From a virus, in IMG/VR virus record IMGVR_UViG_3300030118_000146, positions 1-33,104 of that record: a stretch of DNA of 33,104 nt. One strand, written 5' to 3'. The notes under the pieces are model-generated. The model made no database searches, was not told the origin of the DNA, and saw only the letters and a program-made list of their open reading frames with translations. The translations under genes were made by a program, and so were the position numbers. Of the stretch, positions 18,879-33,104 are shown in pieces. The first letter of the stretch is position 1. Each line of letters begins with the position of its first letter.

Positions 18879-21719
18879 ATGTCAGGTCCATTAGGCTCTT
18901 CACAGTGGTTTAAACCTAAAATATTTTATCCACATACCATAGACCAATCATTGCGGTTTGAGGATGGGGATGCTAATTATCTGCACAAGACACAAGTCTC
19001 TCCAACTTTAGAGAAAAAATATACTATATCTGCTTGGATTAAGTTGGGGAATATATCAGCCGCATCAAGAATGATTGTTGGTGGTTATGATAATTCTACA
19101 GGACAGTTTCCGTTTTACTTGCGAAGTGACCACAAACTAGGTTTTTATGACTCAGATGGTGTAAGCACATTTTATGCTTTGTATGGAAACAGTGTTTTGC
19201 GTGACCCATCAGCATGGTATCATGTTGTTTTAAATTTTGACTCTGCTAATGGAACAGCCGCAAGCAGAATTAGAATGTATATCAACGGTGATGAAGAAAC
19301 GGTTACAGGAACATTGCCGTCAAATAGACCGGGATATGCAAACCAAAGTGGAACGATTATTCAAGTTGGCGCATCAAATAATAGCACATCGAATCCATTT
19401 GATGGCTATATGGCAGAGGTTCATTTTATTGATGGTAGCGTTCTAGCCCCAACAGAGTTTGCTGAAACTAAAGCTGGCATTTGGATACCCAAAGATACCT
19501 CTGGCCTAACATTTGGAAACAATGGTTTTAGATTAAAGTTTCAAGATAGTTCTGCGCTTGGTGATGACACTAGTGGAGAAGGGCATGACTTAACCGCTAC
19601 CAGCGGTTGGAAAACAACTGACCAAGTACCAGACAGCCCTACGAATAATTGGTGTACACTTAATCCACTTTTTACAAACAGTGGCACTACTCAAACTTTT
19701 GCAGAGGGCAACCTAAAGTTTACAGCAGACAGTGGCTATGCTTTAGCAAATGGTACTTTTGCTATGCGCTCTGGAAAGTGGTATTGGGAAACATTAATAC
19801 AAGCACAAAATATTTCAAACGTAGGAATAACCAGAGGCACTAATGCAAATACATCAGCCTACGTTGGGTATGACGCTAATGGAAATGTGTTTGGTTTTGG
19901 TTATCAATCAACAATTATATATGGAGCATCTGGTGATGGCACAGCCTCTGGTGCAACATTAGCAACATCTCAAACAAGTTATACAACGGGTGATATAATT
20001 GGATGTTCGTTTGATGCTGATGCAGGTGAACTAAAGTTCTATAAAAATAATAGTTTAATTTATACAGTGTCTAGCATTAACACGCACGATTGGATGCCAG
20101 CCAACTCAGGTTACCAAACATCTAATATAAATGTAGTTAATTTTGGTCAAGATAGTTCTTTTGCTAATAATAAAACAAGTGGGTCAGCAAACGCATCAGA
20201 TGCGAATGGTGTGGGAAACTTTTTTTACAGCCCACCGTCTGGCTTCTTAGCCCTTTGTGCAGCCAACCTTTCTGACCCCGGTATTGACCCTAATGAAGAT
20301 GAAGAGTCAGAAGATTTTTTTAATACGTTGTTATACACTGGAGATGGCAATTCTAACCAAACTATTGGCTCTACTTCTCCTCATATATTACAATTTAATC
20401 CGGGTTTTGTTTGGATAAAAAGTAGAAGCAGTAACACTGGTCATCACAGTTTAGGCAATCGGGTTATTGGTGATTTCTTTATGAACTCCAATCAACAAGT
20501 AGATGAGTATGCTTTTAGCGCATTTAATTTTAATACGAATAATACTATTGACGTTCCAGTTTCTAGTAATGATTATTCAATGAACACAACTTCACAAACT
20601 TATATTGCATACAACTGGCTAGCTGGCAGTTCTACTCCAAGTAAAACCTATACAGTAAAAGTAGTTTCAGATAGTGGAAATAAATATAGATTTGATGATT
20701 TTGGTACAAGCGCAGTAACTTTAGATTTACAAGAAGGTGGAACCTATACGTTTGACCAATCAGATAGTTCAATGAGTTCACACCCCATGAAACTATCTGA
20801 AACAGCAAATGGAAGTCATAGTGGTGGTTCAACATATAACACGGGTGTAACTTATCAGTTAGATGGTTCTGACGTAACGGAATCTGCTTTTGTATCAGGA
20901 TTTAGTTCTGCTACAAGTCGCAAACTAATAATTACTGTAGCAGCGTCTGCACCTACTTTATATTATTTTTGTCATTATCACAGTGGTATGGGTGGTCAGA
21001 TAAACACTAATAGCACCTTTGGTTCTAGTAATTTTAGTGGGTCAATACAATCAAACGTTTCTGAAAATACTAAGTCAGGATTTAGTATAATTAGCTACAC
21101 AGGCACAGGTTCTGCAGCTACAGTGGGGCATGGTTTATCGCAAGCCCCAGAATGGATTCTTGCAAAGCAAAGAGATGCTAATTCTACAGACTGGTATATT
21201 TATCACTCTGCTTTAGGAGCGTCAGCTTATATAACATTAAATGGCAATGCGGCAGCAGTTACTTCTTCATCAGACCCGTGGAATGCAACTGCACCAACCA
21301 ATTCAGTGTTCTCTGTTAGTTCAGCAGGAAGCCCAAGCAGTTCAGGAACAATGATAGCATACTGTTTTCACAGTGTTGATGGCTACAGTAAAATCGGTTC
21401 ATACATAGGCAATGGACAACCTGACGGCACATTTGTTTACACAGGATTTCGTGTTGCATATCTTTTGTTAAAAAGAACGAACGCACTTAACGATTGGGTG
21501 TTACAAAATAACAAATCTAATACAGATAATCCTGTTGATTTAACAATAACTCCAAATGAAACTTATAACGAGTTTGGACCAAATGCTGTTTATAATGTTG
21601 ATTTTTTAAGTAATGGATTTAAAATTAGAAATAACGCAGTTCCTTGGAACGCATCAGGCGGTGCTTACGCTTACCTTGCTTTTGCAGAACAACCCTTTAA
21701 ATATGCTAATGCTCGATAG
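18879..21719 (+). CDS. Large multidomain adhesin: LamG-like, SPRY-like, cupredoxin-like and repeat domains
   Basis: 946 residues, the largest fibre-region protein. Residues about 22-186 look like a LamG/concanavalin domain (LRFEDGDANYL, YTISAWIKL, WYHVVLNFDS, MYINGDEE, YMAEVHFIDG). Residues about 280-425 look like SPRY (KWYWETLIQAQNISNVGI, GDIIGCSFDADAGELKFYKN, YTVSSIN). Residues about 588-712 look like a cupredoxin, with H635 in SSHPM and C698, H701, M704 in FCHYHSGMGG. Residues 480-582, 735-840 and 838-946 are three related modules (LLYTGDG, IISYTGTG, IGSYIGNG). It is probably exposed and binds host glycans or proteins. The cupredoxin-like part interrupts the repeat series, which suggests insertion. 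AGGAAAA precedes the ATG. Confidence 0.87.
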   Translation: MSGPLGSSQWFKPKIFYPHTIDQSLRFEDGDANYLHKTQVSPTLEKKYTISAWIKLGNISAASRMIVGGYDNSTGQFPFYLRSDHKLGFYDSDGVSTFYALYGNSVLRDPSAWYHVVLNFDSANGTAASRIRMYINGDEETVTGTLPSNRPGYANQSGTIIQVGASNNSTSNPFDGYMAEVHFIDGSVLAPTEFAETKAGIWIPKDTSGLTFGNNGFRLKFQDSSALGDDTSGEGHDLTATSGWKTTDQVPDSPTNNWCTLNPLFTNSGTTQTFAEGNLKFTADSGYALANGTFAMRSGKWYWETLIQAQNISNVGITRGTNANTSAYVGYDANGNVFGFGYQSTIIYGASGDGTASGATLATSQTSYTTGDIIGCSFDADAGELKFYKNNSLIYTVSSINTHDWMPANSGYQTSNINVVNFGQDSSFANNKTSGSANASDANGVGNFFYSPPSGFLALCAANLSDPGIDPNEDEESEDFFNTLLYTGDGNSNQTIGSTSPHILQFNPGFVWIKSRSSNTGHHSLGNRVIGDFFMNSNQQVDEYAFSAFNFNTNNTIDVPVSSNDYSMNTTSQTYIAYNWLAGSSTPSKTYTVKVVSDSGNKYRFDDFGTSAVTLDLQEGGTYTFDQSDSSMSSHPMKLSETANGSHSGGSTYNTGVTYQLDGSDVTESAFVSGFSSATSRKLIITVAASAPTLYYFCHYHSGMGGQINTNSTFGSSNFSGSIQSNVSENTKSGFSIISYTGTGSAATVGHGLSQAPEWILAKQRDANSTDWYIYHSALGASAYITLNGNAAAVTSSSDPWNATAPTNSVFSVSSAGSPSSSGTMIAYCFHSVDGYSKIGSYIGNGQPDGTFVYTGFRVAYLLLKRTNALNDWVLQNNKSNTDNPVDLTITPNETYNEFGPNAVYNVDFLSNGFKIRNNAVPWNASGGAYAYLAFAEQPFKYANAR

Positions 21720-25127: not shown

Positions 25128-26458
25128 TGGGTTTTGGAACGGGTTTTGTTACAGGTTTAGCTAGTAGTGTTGACAGAATGCTGCAGATGGATATCCAGCG
25201 CAATATGGATAGGATGTCTAAAGCTGATACTTATCTAGCATCTCGCTATGAGCAAACTCAAAAAGCAGAGTTAGCAAAGAAAAAGAAGAAAAAAGAAATT
25301 GATGATAAGTTGTTAGAAGAGTATGCCGAACTTAAAGAGTTGTTAGGCGATGACAGAAGAGCATTATCTGCCATTGAAAATAAAGGTGGCACATACAGCG
25401 CACTCACAAGTGCTTTAAAAGATTTTAGAGAGCAATCTGAAAGAGGCATTGACCTTAACAAATACTTTACCGTGGCTGAATCTCAAAACCCAGAAAGTCT
25501 TACTGTAGATAGAGAGTTCCTTTTAAATAGATATGGTTATATGATTGAACCTGAAGCTAAACCTACTTTACCAGAGTATATGAGGGGTAGCACAGGTATG
25601 ATGAAGGCTTTGTTTGGTTCTAATTTACGTGGGCAAGATGACTTTCCTGAATATAAAAGTCTTATTTCAGATGACCTTACTACAAGAGTAACTGATGATG
25701 TTACTATTCCTAAAGGGACAATAAATTATGAAGCGGGTCATAAGGCAATGACATTTGCCAAGCAAATGGAAGATAGATTTACTAGCTTTGATGAAGGGTA
25801 TACTAGACTTCAACAGCAAATAGAAGCTGCGGAAACACCAGAAGACAGAACTAAGCTGGAAACAGAATTGGCTAATCTGATTAATCTGGAAACAAAAATT
25901 AAACGAATGCAAGCAAAAAAAGATGGTAGAGATACAGTAGAGTCTGTATTTAAAGACCCGTTAAAGCCACAGAACCTGATAAAGAAGGTATACGACAGGG
26001 CTACTGAACCATACTATGAGGTAGACCTTGAGAATAATATTCGTAATGCATTAGAGGGAACTGAAGCACAAACCTTTGAAGCATTGTTTAATGCACAGGA
26101 AGATATTAGAGCAACCTATACAACAGGTGAAGGTGCAGATGCATTTATTGACCCACTGTTAGATAGGCTCTTAATAGCAGAAAAAGGAAGAGTACAGGGG
26201 CAGGTAAACGGGTATATAGCTAATATGAAATTTGATTTTATGGAAAGGCAACGTGAAATGCCCGGTGCAAGTAATGCACAAGTTGCACAATCACTAGAAA
26301 AGTTTGCTATAGAACCTGATGCACGTACAGTAAATGATAAGATGAAACAGGGTATATATAAGCCCGGAACAGTTATTCAGTATGAAGATGCTAATGGTAA
26401 TATTAAAATGGTCGTATGGACAGGAAATAAACCTCTTCCCGGTACGTTTGATTTCTAA
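25127..26458 (+). CDS. Probable internal virion/ejection protein, 443 residues
   Basis: A helical, charged protein. The N-terminus (MGFGTGFVTGLASSVDRML) is glycine-rich and could be an amphipathic, membrane-active helix. Next comes a lysine run at about 51-56 and coiled-coil segments. A segment near PTLPEYMRGSTGMMKALFGSN and a C-terminal beta-like tail (GTVIQYEDANGNIKMVVWTGN) complete it. Similar proteins lie next to the giant internal protein in marine podoviruses. No enzymatic motif is seen. GGAG lies seven bases before the TAATG-coupled start. Confidence 0.75.
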   Translation: MGFGTGFVTGLASSVDRMLQMDIQRNMDRMSKADTYLASRYEQTQKAELAKKKKKKEIDDKLLEEYAELKELLGDDRRALSAIENKGGTYSALTSALKDFREQSERGIDLNKYFTVAESQNPESLTVDREFLLNRYGYMIEPEAKPTLPEYMRGSTGMMKALFGSNLRGQDDFPEYKSLISDDLTTRVTDDVTIPKGTINYEAGHKAMTFAKQMEDRFTSFDEGYTRLQQQIEAAETPEDRTKLETELANLINLETKIKRMQAKKDGRDTVESVFKDPLKPQNLIKKVYDRATEPYYEVDLENNIRNALEGTEAQTFEALFNAQEDIRATYTTGEGADAFIDPLLDRLLIAEKGRVQGQVNGYIANMKFDFMERQREMPGASNAQVAQSLEKFAIEPDARTVNDKMKQGIYKPGTVIQYEDANGNIKMVVWTGNKPLPGTFDF

Positions 26459-29400
26459 TGCAAAAAGATTTTATGGACATACTAGAAGGTGTGCCTGTTT
26501 CTTCTCCACCTTCACCCGCTATGCCTACATCTCCTATGCAGGACGATGAGGATAAAAAAGATTTTATGTCTATTCTTGACTCTGCTCCTGTTATAGATAG
26601 GGCAGAAGTTGAAGTACAAGCTATAACAGATATACCTGAAGCTGTACCTGAAGTAGAAGAAGAACCTGAACTGACGCAAGAAGAGTTGCAGTTCTATTAT
26701 CAAAGTGAGTATGCTGACCTGTTTGATGAGGATGGTCAGCTTACTGATGTGCCACGTGCTGTTGAACTAGGTATTATAGATGACCCAGATAATCCGGGTT
26801 ACAAAGTTCAAAAGGACGGTGGCCTTATACCTACCCCACCTACTCGTCAAATAATCTTTAATGATATTGGAAAAAGAATGGATGCGGAGCGTAGCAATAT
26901 GCTCACGCAAATGTCTCGTCTTGAGCGTAGTAAGTTTGAGAGAGAAGAATCTCGCAAAACTATCTTAGAAGCTGCTGAAGAAAAGGGCATGGCTGAAGAT
27001 GATTTTATTGAGCAAGTTCTTATACCAAGCATAGACCCAGAGGAGTCACCTTACTTACGTAAGTTTTTTGACTATACAGGTGCATCAGGATTTAATATTC
27101 TTAACTCCGTAGGTACAGGCTTAGATGTTACTGCTGGTGGATTTAAAGATGCTATGCAAGCAATTGCAGAAACCATGCAAGATAATATGCCAGACGTATA
27201 CGATGCTATGAATGTAGCTTTAGTAGGTGCAAAACAAACTCCTGAACAATTTGCTGAGAGTGCAGGAGATGAGGCATTTAACTTTCTTACATTTGTAGAT
27301 ACAATACCTGCTATGGGTATAATTGCAAGACCTTTAGCTGGTGCTACAAAGGCACAAAAAGAAAGCATTAAAGCTACTGAACAGTTAAATAAAGCTATTG
27401 AGGTACAGAAAAAAGCTACCACTAAAAAAGACAAAGCAATTGCAGGTAAGAAAGTCAAAGCTGCACGAGAAAACCTTGATGCTGCAGTTGCCAAAGAAAT
27501 GGCTGACCGTGATGCACGTGATATCAAAGCACAGATTAAAGCTGACAAGAAATGGAATAGAAAGCTAAACGTCAATAAAGCACGTAATATGACTGCCATT
27601 GAGGAGACAGAGAGGGCAGCAGAGGCTGCACGTGTAGCTGAAGGTAATCGTGATATTGCAGAAGATATGATACGTGCCTTTGAAGATGAGACAGGTGAGA
27701 TTATCTCATTAACAGATGACGCAGGTAGACTACGCATAGACCCAGACAAAGCACGTGCTGTAGGCCAAAAGAAAACAGAGGATATACTGTCGGCTGAAAG
27801 AAAGGGCATGACAGGTGGTGCTGATGTTACTGTAAATGATTTGGCTGCTCTTGCAACAGGCAAAGACTCTCTAGTAGTGGGCATTGTAGACCCAGCTAAG
27901 TTTGACGGTATTGTAGCTGCTGCTGCTGACCTAAAGAAAGCCAACCCTGATGCGTTTAAACCGAGAGTATGGGAATATGGTCCACGTAAAGGCAAAGAGT
28001 ATACTATAATTGACCATCTGTTTGACTTGACAGTTAACAAAGACTTACTGGCTGGCGATGAACTGCTTGACATGTTAAACAAATATGGTGTGTCATATGA
28101 GGATTATGTTCTTGCTATTGTAGGTTCAGGTTCTACCGCAGGTAAAGTGTTAAACAAGCTATCGCAGATTAAACGTGCAAGACCGGGTAATGAATTAGAT
28201 GCTGCAAAAGAAGCAGCTACTGCACAGGCTCAAGGTGCTATCCGTAAAACTGTAATGCGTATAGAAAATATACGTAGAGGGGGCATGGTTTCACAGCTTG
28301 CTACTGCTGCACGTAACTTAACATCTGCAGGTATACGTGCGCCACTAGAAGGTATTGGTAACGTAATGGACAATGCCCTGTGGAGTCTATCTAACGAAGG
28401 TATACTTGCCGCAGGTAAGCAGCTTAACCCTCTGTCTGCCGGGTTTAAAGATAGCTTTAGGTCATTAAGATATATGTTTGGACCTGAGTACGCTACAGCT
28501 ACACGAGAGTATGTAGATTTTATCTTACAGCAACCTGAAATTGCAAAACAGGCAGACTTATTATTTAACAACATTAATGAAATTCAAAGGCTGACAGGTA
28601 GAGGTGAAGCTAAAACAGCGTTTGGTAAATATGTACTAGACCCAGTGTTGTCTACAGCAGAAGATGGGGTTATGTTTCTTAATGGGCCAAACCGTTGGCA
28701 GGAACATCTGATAAGACGGGGTGCTTTCTTCGGTGAATTAGAACGATTGGTTAGGCGTGAGTACAAGGTAGATTTTATTGAGGCATTAAACAACGGTAAG
28801 ATTCGTGACTTTATGAACGATGCAAGTTCTGTGCGTCCAGAAGGTGCAAGGTCATTTATAAACATAGTAGAAGAAGCTACACAAAAAGCCTTAGATATTA
28901 CCTATGCAAAACAACCTGACGTTTTAATATTTAGAAACTGGTCACAGTTTATTGTCCGTAATGGTCTGACCACTGTACTACCTTTTCCTCGCTTTATGTT
29001 TAATAGCTTGGAACTAATGGGTCAGTATATGGGTGGAGCATCTATTCCTTTAGCACGTAAGTTAACAAATATAGTAACGCTAGGACGTGTAGGCAAAGGC
29101 AAGTTGTCTATGAAAGATAGACAGCGTATATCTCGTAACCTTGTAGGCATGGGTGCATCTGCACCACTATTGCCAGCAGCAATAGGTGCTGCATTGGATG
29201 ACGATGCGTCTAATCAGGAACAGATAGGTGATGACTTACTATCAATAGGTATATTTGGTGCTGCTTATCAGTATAGAATGATGCCTGATGCTCCTGCAGA
29301 TTATAAGTTTATGACTGCTGATGATGGTAATGTTATTGATACAACCACACAATATCCTATGAGACAGTTTTTATATATAGGTGAAGCAACCAAGCGTTTA

Positions 29401-30354
29401 CAAGAGGGCACATTTGATGAGTTTTTTGATAGTAAAGAGTTTAACGAAACTTTCTTAGGTACAAATATACGAACAGGTGTAGGTGCTGGCATTAGTCGTG
29501 AGATATTAGATATTGTTGCGGGTAGTGATATTACCGCATCTGAAAGAGCAGCTAAAGGTTTTGGTAGGGCAATAGGAAATTATTTATCTTCTTGGGCTGT
29601 GCCTTTTGCACAGGTTATAGAGACACAACGTGCTACAGGGGGAAGAGGGTTAGAGTATAAAGATGTTGCCGATGACCCAACACTTAATGCGTGGAGTACA
29701 TTTAAGCACGAGATAAACAGACCATTTAAACAACGTGGTTTTACAATCTCTCCTGAAGAAGAAGCTAAGTTACCACCACGTGAGTTCTTGTTCAAAGAGG
29801 ATGCAGAACGTGTGTATCCATTTGCTCGTGTAATTGGCGGTCTGTCCTTCAGTGAGGCTGACTCAGCAGAAGGTGAATACATCAAAAAGCTAGGTCTGTC
29901 TGAGTTTATGTTGGGAAGTAACTCTCGTGTGCCTAGCATTCGTAGGTTTGAGAATCAAACATTACGAGAGGTCATACCTGAAATTGTATCTGTAGCACGT
30001 ACACGAGAAAAACAATTGCGTATACAATACAAGTTTGCCAGAGATGCTGTGAAGAAAAAGTATACAGAAGAAGAGTTTGTGTTGCAGAATGTCAAGCCTC
30101 TAATTACTAAACAGATAGGTAAGATAAAGCGTGACATAACAGAACAAAAGAAGCTGTCTGCTAAAGCACCTGCTTACACATCAGCATTGATAAAGTTTAG
30201 AAGATTACCACCCGACATACGCACACAGGCTATATCACAGTTTGTACTGCAAAAGAATAAAGAGCCTGATGTAGCAAACATCAATGACTTTGAAGACCTA
30301 GAGTCACTACATAAAATTGGTAAAGTATTACTAAGAAAGCAGGGGGGCCGTTAA
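26458..30354 (+). CDS. Giant internal virion / DNA-ejection protein, 1298 residues
   Basis: The last and longest gene of the late operon, as with the T7 gp16-type position. No transglycosylase motif is visible, unlike T7 gp16. The N-terminus carries two copies of a short motif (KDFMDILEGVPV at 3-14 and KDFMSILDSAPV at 34-45). A glycine/alanine-rich segment (ASGFNILNSVGTGLDVTAGG), a long charged coiled coil (about 295-420), hydrophobic stretches (LVGMGASAPLLPAAIGAAL, LLSIGIFGAAYQY) and a basic C-terminus follow. Such proteins leave the head with the DNA and form a channel across the envelope. The start overlaps the previous stop (TAATG) with no clear ribosome site. The stop codon lies in the loop of the terminator. 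Confidence 0.83.
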   Translation: MQKDFMDILEGVPVSSPPSPAMPTSPMQDDEDKKDFMSILDSAPVIDRAEVEVQAITDIPEAVPEVEEEPELTQEELQFYYQSEYADLFDEDGQLTDVPRAVELGIIDDPDNPGYKVQKDGGLIPTPPTRQIIFNDIGKRMDAERSNMLTQMSRLERSKFEREESRKTILEAAEEKGMAEDDFIEQVLIPSIDPEESPYLRKFFDYTGASGFNILNSVGTGLDVTAGGFKDAMQAIAETMQDNMPDVYDAMNVALVGAKQTPEQFAESAGDEAFNFLTFVDTIPAMGIIARPLAGATKAQKESIKATEQLNKAIEVQKKATTKKDKAIAGKKVKAARENLDAAVAKEMADRDARDIKAQIKADKKWNRKLNVNKARNMTAIEETERAAEAARVAEGNRDIAEDMIRAFEDETGEIISLTDDAGRLRIDPDKARAVGQKKTEDILSAERKGMTGGADVTVNDLAALATGKDSLVVGIVDPAKFDGIVAAAADLKKANPDAFKPRVWEYGPRKGKEYTIIDHLFDLTVNKDLLAGDELLDMLNKYGVSYEDYVLAIVGSGSTAGKVLNKLSQIKRARPGNELDAAKEAATAQAQGAIRKTVMRIENIRRGGMVSQLATAARNLTSAGIRAPLEGIGNVMDNALWSLSNEGILAAGKQLNPLSAGFKDSFRSLRYMFGPEYATATREYVDFILQQPEIAKQADLLFNNINEIQRLTGRGEAKTAFGKYVLDPVLSTAEDGVMFLNGPNRWQEHLIRRGAFFGELERLVRREYKVDFIEALNNGKIRDFMNDASSVRPEGARSFINIVEEATQKALDITYAKQPDVLIFRNWSQFIVRNGLTTVLPFPRFMFNSLELMGQYMGGASIPLARKLTNIVTLGRVGKGKLSMKDRQRISRNLVGMGASAPLLPAAIGAALDDDASNQEQIGDDLLSIGIFGAAYQYRMMPDAPADYKFMTADDGNVIDTTTQYPMRQFLYIGEATKRLQEGTFDEFFDSKEFNETFLGTNIRTGVGAGISREILDIVAGSDITASERAAKGFGRAIGNYLSSWAVPFAQVIETQRATGGRGLEYKDVADDPTLNAWSTFKHEINRPFKQRGFTISPEEEAKLPPREFLFKEDAERVYPFARVIGGLSFSEADSAEGEYIKKLGLSEFMLGSNSRVPSIRRFENQTLREVIPEIVSVARTREKQLRIQYKFARDAVKKKYTEEEFVLQNVKPLITKQIGKIKRDITEQKKLSAKAPAYTSALIKFRRLPPDIRTQAISQFVLQKNKEPDVANINDFEDLESLHKIGKVLLRKQGGR

Positions 30355-31564: not shown

Positions 31565-31686
31565 GTTTTTTCCTTTCTAAATCTGTGTTTAAAGAACACT
31601 ACTAAATTAAGCAGGGTGTTTGTTGTAATCATTACAAGTATCCACCACTGCCACCATAACAAGTCTAATCCACTACACTCTATCAT
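31561..31686 (-). CDS. 41-residue membrane peptide between nrdJ and the small conserved gene
   Basis: Starts MIECSGLDLLWWQWWILVM and ends HRFRKEKT. One tryptophan-rich hydrophobic segment covers about residues 7-32, followed by a basic tail, so it should be an inner-membrane protein with the C-terminus in the cytoplasm. Its ATG overlaps the nrdJ stop (TAATG) and its TGA overlaps the GTG of the next gene (GTGA), so it fills the gap with no spare base. No family recognised. This exact fit at both ends argues strongly that it is translated. Confidence 0.7.
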   Translation of the reverse strand: MIECSGLDLLWWQWWILVMITTNTLLNLVVFFKHRFRKEKT

Positions 31687-33104
31687 TATGCAGCAGTCAA
31701 GTCAACCACTTCACATACCCCTGCAGTGCAGGCTAACTCACGCCCACCTGATGTAGTGTCTTCCTTCTCAAACTCTCGCAATGCAGACCAATCAATTGAT
31801 GTAGGCATTTGTGCTTTCATCTCTTTGTACTCTTCCTCAGTGCAATCCTGATAAGGTGCTTGCTTATATGTATGCTCACTGAACGGCAGGAAGCTGATGC
31901 CTGACACTTCATCAAAGTGTTTGTATACCCATGAGCCTACATCCATCCACTCTTCTTCTTTTACAGAGATTGTTACAGATGGCTTGTGTTCACACCAGTA
32001 ACGCTGATACATAAGCCACAACTCAAGCTGTTCAATAGCAGACATAGCGGTGCGTGTTACGGCACGTGCAGGTGAACGCATTGGGAAGCTAAATACTGTA
32101 GTGCTATCTGGCTTCATTACGTCAGGCTCTGCCGGGATACCTTGTGCTACCATAAACTGTGTCAATGGGTCTTTGTTATCTCCACGAACAGTACGGATGT
32201 AGTACGGATTGTGACGGGCATGTATACCTGATGCACTGTCTACCAACTGTGACACTGTACCGGATGGCTTAACACATGTGATAGCAGTGGACTGTGGTAT
32301 CTTTAACTGTTTAGCCATAGATTTATTAGCATCTATAGCTACATCTTTTAATGCCTCAAGAGTCTGTCCAATGTTTATACCCAGATGAGCAGAGCGACCT
32401 GCTGTCAACTGGTTATCCATAATACCAGTGAGTGATACACCAAGCAGACGTTCTTCTTCTGTGTTCTTCTTCCATACACTACGCAGGTATTTGAAGTCAG
32501 TCAAAGTAGATTGGAACGTACCTAGTATTGTAGCCAAGCGCACCTTCTCTGTTAGTGTCTGTTGCGTATCTGTTTCACGTACAACAACCTCAGACAAGTT
32601 ACAGAACTGATAAGGACGCAAGATAATTTCAGAACAGGGGTTACATCCGAAATCTTGTTCCGCATCTCTACGTCCATTCTTAGCTGCTTGCACCTGTGCA
32701 GACTTGCGATTAAATATACCACGCTCACCTGACTTACTTTCATACAGTGACAGCCATTCACGCATGAATGTACCCATCTGTGGCTTACCTTTGTAGGCAA
32801 CGCTGTTGTTTGCAAGCGCACGTTGTCCTTCATTTTCCCACCATTGACCTGATTTTGCATGAGCCATCTGGTCATCATTCAGGTTTGATAGGCTGATGAG
32901 TGCGCTGCGTCTGACCCCACCGACAACTACAACCTCACCAATCTTACACATGATATCGTGACACTCAACGGGGAACAATCTACGACCTGATGCTGCTTTG
33001 AACTTCTCTATGCAAAACTCAAAGAGTTCTTCAAGAGGGGCTGGGCCACTGGCTCTACCACCAAATGTCTTGAGCCTTGCACCTGCGGGGCGTACCTCTG
33101 ATAC
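31686..33104 (-). CDS. nrdJ: Adenosylcobalamin-dependent (class II) ribonucleotide reductase, 5' end outside window
   Basis: The frame is open to the right edge, so 472 C-terminal residues are visible. It resembles the monomeric Lactobacillus RTPR type. The visible part begins VSEVRPAGARLKTFGGRASG and includes the RTPR-like VVVVGGVRRSALISL. The active-site NPCSE is present, with the thiyl-radical cysteine and a second cysteine eleven residues later (CNL), as in RTPR (C408/C419). The C-terminus ends with ACTAGVC, a C-x4-C pair like C731/C736 that shuttles electrons. A VKPSGTVSQLVDSASGIHARH segment is also conserved. The enzyme makes deoxynucleotides and needs vitamin B12. The first reducing cysteine would lie in the missing part. 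Confidence 0.93.
   Translation of the reverse strand, partial: VSEVRPAGARLKTFGGRASGPAPLEELFEFCIEKFKAASGRRLFPVECHDIMCKIGEVVVVGGVRRSALISLSNLNDDQMAHAKSGQWWENEGQRALANNSVAYKGKPQMGTFMREWLSLYESKSGERGIFNRKSAQVQAAKNGRRDAEQDFGCNPCSEIILRPYQFCNLSEVVVRETDTQQTLTEKVRLATILGTFQSTLTDFKYLRSVWKKNTEEERLLGVSLTGIMDNQLTAGRSAHLGINIGQTLEALKDVAIDANKSMAKQLKIPQSTAITCVKPSGTVSQLVDSASGIHARHNPYYIRTVRGDNKDPLTQFMVAQGIPAEPDVMKPDSTTVFSFPMRSPARAVTRTAMSAIEQLELWLMYQRYWCEHKPSVTISVKEEEWMDVGSWVYKHFDEVSGISFLPFSEHTYKQAPYQDCTEEEYKEMKAQMPTSIDWSALREFEKEDTTSGGRELACTAGVCEVVDLTAA

Follow-up and report, generated by a model that had tools for sequence, protein, structure and literature searches.

Type-1 copper proteins such as amicyanin, rusticyanin, AcoP and the N-domain of Hyphomicrobium nitrite reductase serve as electron carriers in the periplasm or as domains of enzymes. 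The domain described here resembles them in its predicted fold and in the order and place of its His, Cys, His and Met residues, but it forms part of a virion adhesin. Metal sites in host-recognition proteins are known from iron-binding phage tail fibers, for which passages of PMC11705849 deal with the HxH motifs of T4 gp37, with Alteromonas phage R22Y and with the Trojan-horse idea. The adhesin analyzed here has a candidate site of this kind; in the fibers, however, the metal is iron, the motifs are HxH, the fibers are trimeric and their fold is unrelated to that of the domain. A cupredoxin is exported by a phage-like machine in the case of the T6SS azurin, which passages of PMC6907878 report to bind the copper TonB-dependent receptor OprC, although another group did not reproduce the azurin-OprC complex by size exclusion (passages of PMC8610252). 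That azurin is a secreted effector, whereas the present domain is part of a virion. Pyocins can enter via a copper-regulated receptor, according to part of PMC10422930. No paper describing a cupredoxin in a phage virion was found in the open-licence PMC literature and, as far as open papers tell, the case presented here is a known fold at an apparently undescribed place.

The stretch of DNA analyzed (the window, 33,104 nucleotides) belongs to a virus record of 55,779 bases. The large terminase of this record shares 86.7% identity with the terminase of Puniceispirillum phage HMO-2011 and 60–84% with those of the listed CRP-series Roseobacter phages. Elsewhere the record encodes an integrase, PolA and a DnaB-like helicase, which is the gene set described for HMO-2011-type phages in passages of PMC6918029. 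Because of this terminase likeness and gene content, a SAR116 bacterium or a roseobacter is the probable host. The adhesin matches phrog_19943 ("virion structural protein") over residues 16–946 with an E of 3.6e-162, and the proteins related to its C-terminal part go by tail fiber or LamG-like names. The whole carrier scored 267.4 bits against DUF7483 (PF24299), for which the curated cut-off is 27, and the match falls in two stretches of the protein. The features of this gene are the following:

18879..21719, plus strand: virion adhesin gene, 946 amino acids, with the match to phrog_19943.
19776..20114, plus strand: SPRY domain, residues 300–412 (Pfam PF00622, 35.4 bits with a cut-off of 26.3).
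20280..20642, plus strand: first part of DUF7483 (PF24299), residues 468–588, left flank of the insert.
20640..21014, plus strand: predicted cupredoxin-like domain, residues 588–712 (AlphaFold2 model and PDB fold matches).
21015..21716, plus strand: remainder of DUF7483 (PF24299), residues 713–946, right flank of the insert, with the best stretch at residues 713–939.

Downstream of the adhesin region, the window also contains an ORF of 1,298 amino acids (26458–30354) with no PHROG match at E 0.001 and, on the minus strand (31686–33104), what appears by eye to be the C-terminal part of a ribonucleotide reductase.

An earlier note on this DNA had described the domain as inserted between repeat modules, and the comparison with relatives bears this out, since the domain splits DUF7483 in two and some relatives have this module unbroken. 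From viral contigs, 80 relatives of the right flank were collected, and 48 of them also matched the left flank. The domain was present in only two of these 80, a figure that is no census, as the relatives were ranked by likeness to the right flank of the window. One of the two is a near-identical contig (L366); the other (L423) carries the domain at the same joint but in a different copy of the module. When nine relatives were aligned residue by residue, the flanks were seen to join directly where the window has residues ~586–714. Because only two of the 80 relatives carry it, the domain is dispensable to this type of DUF7483 adhesin. A plastocyanin acting as a phage metabolic gene, that is, as a free-standing exported carrier, was rejected as a candidate: the domain lies within the structural ORF of 946 amino acids.

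Positions 20640–21014 encode residues 588–712 in frame, and H635, C698, H701 and M704 are all found where the earlier note had placed them. The note had also proposed a cupredoxin-like fold, with which the structure prediction and two structure searches agreed. The AlphaFold2 model, obtained from 64 aligned sequences (alignment A3), had a pLDDT of 95.5 and a pTM of 0.89. In the Foldseek search against the PDB, ranks 1–10 were all cupredoxin-fold copper proteins (AcoP, rusticyanin, CueO and nitrite reductase), the best match being the cupredoxin AcoP (E 2.0e-4), and antibody domains started at rank 20. The TM-scores were modest (0.38–0.57 over the first twelve matches, normalized by query length), which counts against the assignment. 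All of the 50 matches listed by VIA-align 2 had the cupredoxin fold, headed by the N-domain of Hyphomicrobium nitrite reductase (2dv6_A; Z 9.9, rmsd 2.5, 98 residues) and including rusticyanin (Z 9.4), small laccases, multicopper oxidases and factor VIII, with about 16–17% identity between the window domain and cupredoxins over the aligned part. According to the tool, a Z of 7–8 is what a model with no clear match usually reaches. Since the best Z of 9.9 is only slightly higher, the claim rests on the agreement of all the VIA rows more than on the height of the score. It also counts against the assignment that the window domain alone gave no Pfam or NCBIfam family match at E up to 1, Copper-bind (PF00127) and Cupredoxin_1 (PF13473) included. 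In the viral library, 64 matches reached E 0.001; among the 50 of them listed, many of the named ones were cyanophage tail or baseplate proteins, and none carried a cupredoxin name. As judged from the models, the domain very probably has a cupredoxin fold, a beta-sandwich of the Greek-key type.

The four residues predicted to bind a metal, with their distribution in the family alignment, are these:

20781..20783, plus strand: codon of H635 in the SSHPM motif, predicted metal ligand; His in 337/386 aligned rows and absent in the other 49.
20970..20972, plus strand: codon of C698, predicted thiolate ligand; Cys in 337/386 rows.
20979..20981, plus strand: codon of H701, predicted metal ligand; His in 336/386 rows, with one more row cut by a contig end.
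20988..20990, plus strand: codon of M704 in the FCHYHSGMGG motif, predicted axial ligand; Met together with the other three in 332/386 rows and His in 2.

In domain numbering these residues are H48, C111, H114 and M117, respectively. According to the secondary structure of the AlphaFold2 model, H48 sits directly before strand 50–53, C111 closes strand 107–111, and H114 and M117 lie in the loop preceding the last strand (118–124). Both the residues and their places on the strands are those of a type-1 site, namely a His followed by Cys-x(n)-His-x(n)-Met, with the Cys at the end of the last-but-one strand. The earlier note had read the four residues as a type-1 ligand set with a shortened spacing. 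Their order and identity stand, but the shorter spacing does not set the domain apart from known type-1 sites, since amicyanin has the same Cys-x2-His-x2-Met loop (His53, Cys92, His95, Met98). In the second domain of the P-SSM2 tail spike, the His, Cys, His and Met columns all aligned with those of rusticyanin, and the whole spike passed the Pfam Copper-bind model PF00127 with 23.3 bits against a cut-off of 21.2. A chance motif was ruled out by its rarity in the surroundings: among 2,612 non-family ORFs (ORFs of at least 100 amino acids from the same loci, family ORFs removed; 570,122 residues), C-x2-H-x2-M was found twice, and never with a His 45–80 residues upstream.

The earlier note had regarded a metal-binding phage adhesin as unusual. 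The domain is no oddity of a single adhesin, however, but belongs to a family that extends over hundreds of marine phages and includes T4-like cyanophage baseplate proteins. With tblastn at E 0.01 it was detected in 321 phage records out of 50,697, nearly all from cyanophages (Synechococcus 229, Cyanophage 58, Prochlorococcus 23, Methylophilales 4, Pelagibacter 3 and others 4), and its phage carriers were gp7-like and gp9-like baseplate proteins, tail spikes, tail fibers and one free-standing protein. Scanning IMG/VR with the window domain gave 251 relatives, the best 80 of which were used; scans with three other members gave 310, 301 and at least 581 relatives, and again the best 80 of each were used. 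The cyanophage proteins of phrog_708 and phrog_677 and the P-SSM2 tail spike PSSM2_298 contain the same domain with its ligands, but they differ from the window adhesin in carrier and in virion position, and the gp7-like proteins add a second copy without ligands. In the gp9-like tail-fiber connector of two loci (L093 and L094), the C-terminal 110 residues make up the cupredoxin domain, and only the first ~60 residues of the protein match T4 gp9/gp10 in the PDB.

The domain is also encoded in cells. Matches were found at 31 loci on genome contigs, several of which resemble phage pieces (fiber-like proteins, Pelagibacteraceae). In SAR86 genomes, single-domain lipoproteins with all the ligands were found (L354, L358 and L364, with lipoprotein signal peptides recognized by eye), which share the domain and the ligand set with the window but are cellular. 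One of these genes (L354) adjoins genes for AMP-binding, enoyl-CoA hydratase and short-chain dehydrogenase proteins. The domain was present in 17 of the 40 genomes of the SAR86 family and relatives of it in 36 of the 369 genomes of the class, these being secreted or lipoprotein forms in all four cases inspected. Two secreted relatives (L459 and L460) matched the Pfam family At5g54830-like (PF25489), one of them with 27.4 bits at a cut-off of 27, which is a possible link of this plant-named family to cupredoxins.

The conservation of the ligands was analyzed in an alignment of 386 rows, corresponding to 385 distinct sequences plus that of the window once more. The invariant columns of profile A1, built from a diverse set of 20 sequences, were H48, Y109, C111, H114 and M117, so that four of the five are ligand positions. 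All four ligands were present in 332 rows, and none of H48, C111 and H114 in 49. The Met was replaced by His in two rows (viral contigs L150 and L152) and missing in one (L220). Two further rows stop at contig ends (L323 and L181), and H114 falls outside L181. Apart from this truncated row, a mixed set of His, Cys and His was found in none of the 386. As far as the alignment goes, the predicted ligand set is complete and co-conserved, in an all-or-none manner.

The 49 rows without ligands comprised 48 copies in gp7-like ORFs located after a gp9-like gene and the stand-alone protein gp080 of PSS2. The gp7-like ORFs are annotated as baseplate wedge in L093 and L094, and elsewhere they were assigned by position and likeness. 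Those of loci L178–L254 have two cupredoxin domains each, for instance at residues 328–461 and 551–681 in L236, and a complete copy followed by a second copy without ligands was found in 45 proteins. The tree (88 rows, few columns, bootstrap unsettled, two SAR86 rows present twice) required two changes for the ligand-less rows, as they formed one clade of 17, nested within a group of complete domains (99/98), and the lone PSS2, on a long branch. Rows count sequences and not events, and the strength of this result resides in the pattern and the two losses rather than in the number 49.

These ligand-less copies served as a control for the fold. When profile A1 was compared with the PDB, 45 matches were obtained up to E 10, of which 43 were cupredoxin-fold copper proteins and two ribosomal L31, and only two matches reached E 0.01. 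Profile A3 gave seven matches, six of them antibodies; an antibody came first and a nitrite reductase appeared only at E 0.46. With the four ligand columns masked, no PDB profile match was left. Because masking the ligands removes all of them, the profile matches to cupredoxins are evidence of the motif only, and sequence comparison alone would not carry the cupredoxin case. As the sequence evidence rests on the motif, the fold of the ligand-less copies was predicted separately, from an alignment of these rows alone (A5; 39 of the 47 listed references were used). The AlphaFold2 model had a pLDDT of 92.7 and a pTM of 0.87, with the same order of strands and helices as the window domain, and all of the 50 matches listed by VIA were again cupredoxin-fold proteins, the best being rusticyanin and auracyanin (Z 8.2). 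At the level of predicted models, this result makes it less of a concern that the fold assignment might merely echo the motif, and it suggests that folding does not depend on the ligands.

An immunoglobulin-like domain bearing the motif by chance would account for the antibodies among the matches of profile A3 and for one relative named "Immunoglobulin domain-containing protein". This explanation is hardly credible, since cupredoxins lead both the Foldseek and the VIA results, and the VIA results also for the motif-free copies. Furthermore, there was a single Cys per domain in 328 of the 332 complete rows, which lack both the core disulfide of V-like immunoglobulin domains and a second Cys with which C698 could have a disulfide role.

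If the ligands are not needed for the fold, selection would therefore keep them for something else, and a metal is the simplest reason for their retention, as far as can be judged from the alignment. It could be argued instead that the fold works only as an adhesion or spacer scaffold, in which the ligands are relics or metal-free stabilizers of the loop. Beta-sandwich modules are common as spacers in phage adhesins, and ligand-less copies that are predicted to keep the fold do exist. Nevertheless, relics decay residue by residue, whereas His, Cys and His were kept or lost jointly throughout the family, the row cut by a contig end excepted; the first copy in the 45 two-copy proteins has all four ligands and the second none of these three; and the tree needs two losses. 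A scaffold function alone is consequently considered unlikely.

The conserved ligands indicate that some metal ion is likely bound at the predicted site, and the type of site makes copper the probable one, with somewhat less assurance. A genuine site that holds zinc or some other ion for structural purposes would be favored by the assembly of virions in the cytoplasm, where copper is scarce, and the same ligand set takes up Zn(II) in cupredoxins made in that compartment. This alternative is improbable, given that a His with Cys-x2-His-x2-Met is the set and order of type-1 copper, that cupredoxin-fold copper proteins account for 43 of the 45 matches of profile A1 in the PDB, and that the fold is seemingly independent of the ligands, which argues against a structural ion.

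The reading that we prefer is that of a movable cupredoxin module with a full type-1 ligand set, inserted in a DUF7483 adhesin of an HMO-2011-type marine phage and providing a metal-dependent contact surface, to which we assign a probability of roughly 0.6 as a whole. The predicted site would bind a single metal ion, for which copper is the likeliest candidate. Free copper is almost absent from the host cytoplasm and, because the tail protein is made there, the metal would probably be taken up outside the cell after lysis. Once loaded, the domain could give the adhesin or the baseplate a rigid surface for metal-dependent contacts. Cupredoxins dock to their partners via the hydrophobic surface that surrounds the C-terminal His ligand. 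In the adhesin, the contact would most likely be made with the host envelope; among possible partners, an envelope protein of the host is the likeliest, although this is no more than a tentative suggestion. In the T4-like cyanophages, receptor docking is less natural, because the domain is located in baseplate proteins and not at the fiber tip, and a structural or switch role is a candidate there.

The complete type-1 ligand set, Met included, and the location of the domain in T4-like cyanophage baseplates (gp9-like and gp7-like proteins) would also be compatible with a copper that is redox active on the virion and mediates electron transfer or a switch in adsorption or baseplate opening. However, neither a redox partner nor a path for electrons can be recognized, and we know of no phage that works by virion redox copper, which makes such activity very improbable.

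Returning to the preferred reading of a metal-dependent contact module, a more far-reaching version of it is that abundant ocean phages (HMO-2011-type phages, pelagiphages and T4-like cyanophages) carry copper-loaded modules on tails and baseplates that are used in infection, for example to dock to receptors for copper uptake or to cupredoxin partners in the host, and make up an unrecognized pool of protein-bound copper in seawater. This is speculative and, in our estimation, unlikely; if true, it would be the copper counterpart of the iron Trojan-horse idea.

A full type-1 copper set across hundreds of virion proteins of marine phages would represent a new kind of virion cofactor and would tie phage adsorption to the copper supply of the ocean. 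The gp7-like proteins, in which a complete copy is paired with a ligand-less one, offer a natural built-in control for the question of metals in infection. Finally, a likely chemistry can be given to a domain whose present annotation is either "hypothetical" or taken from its carrier.
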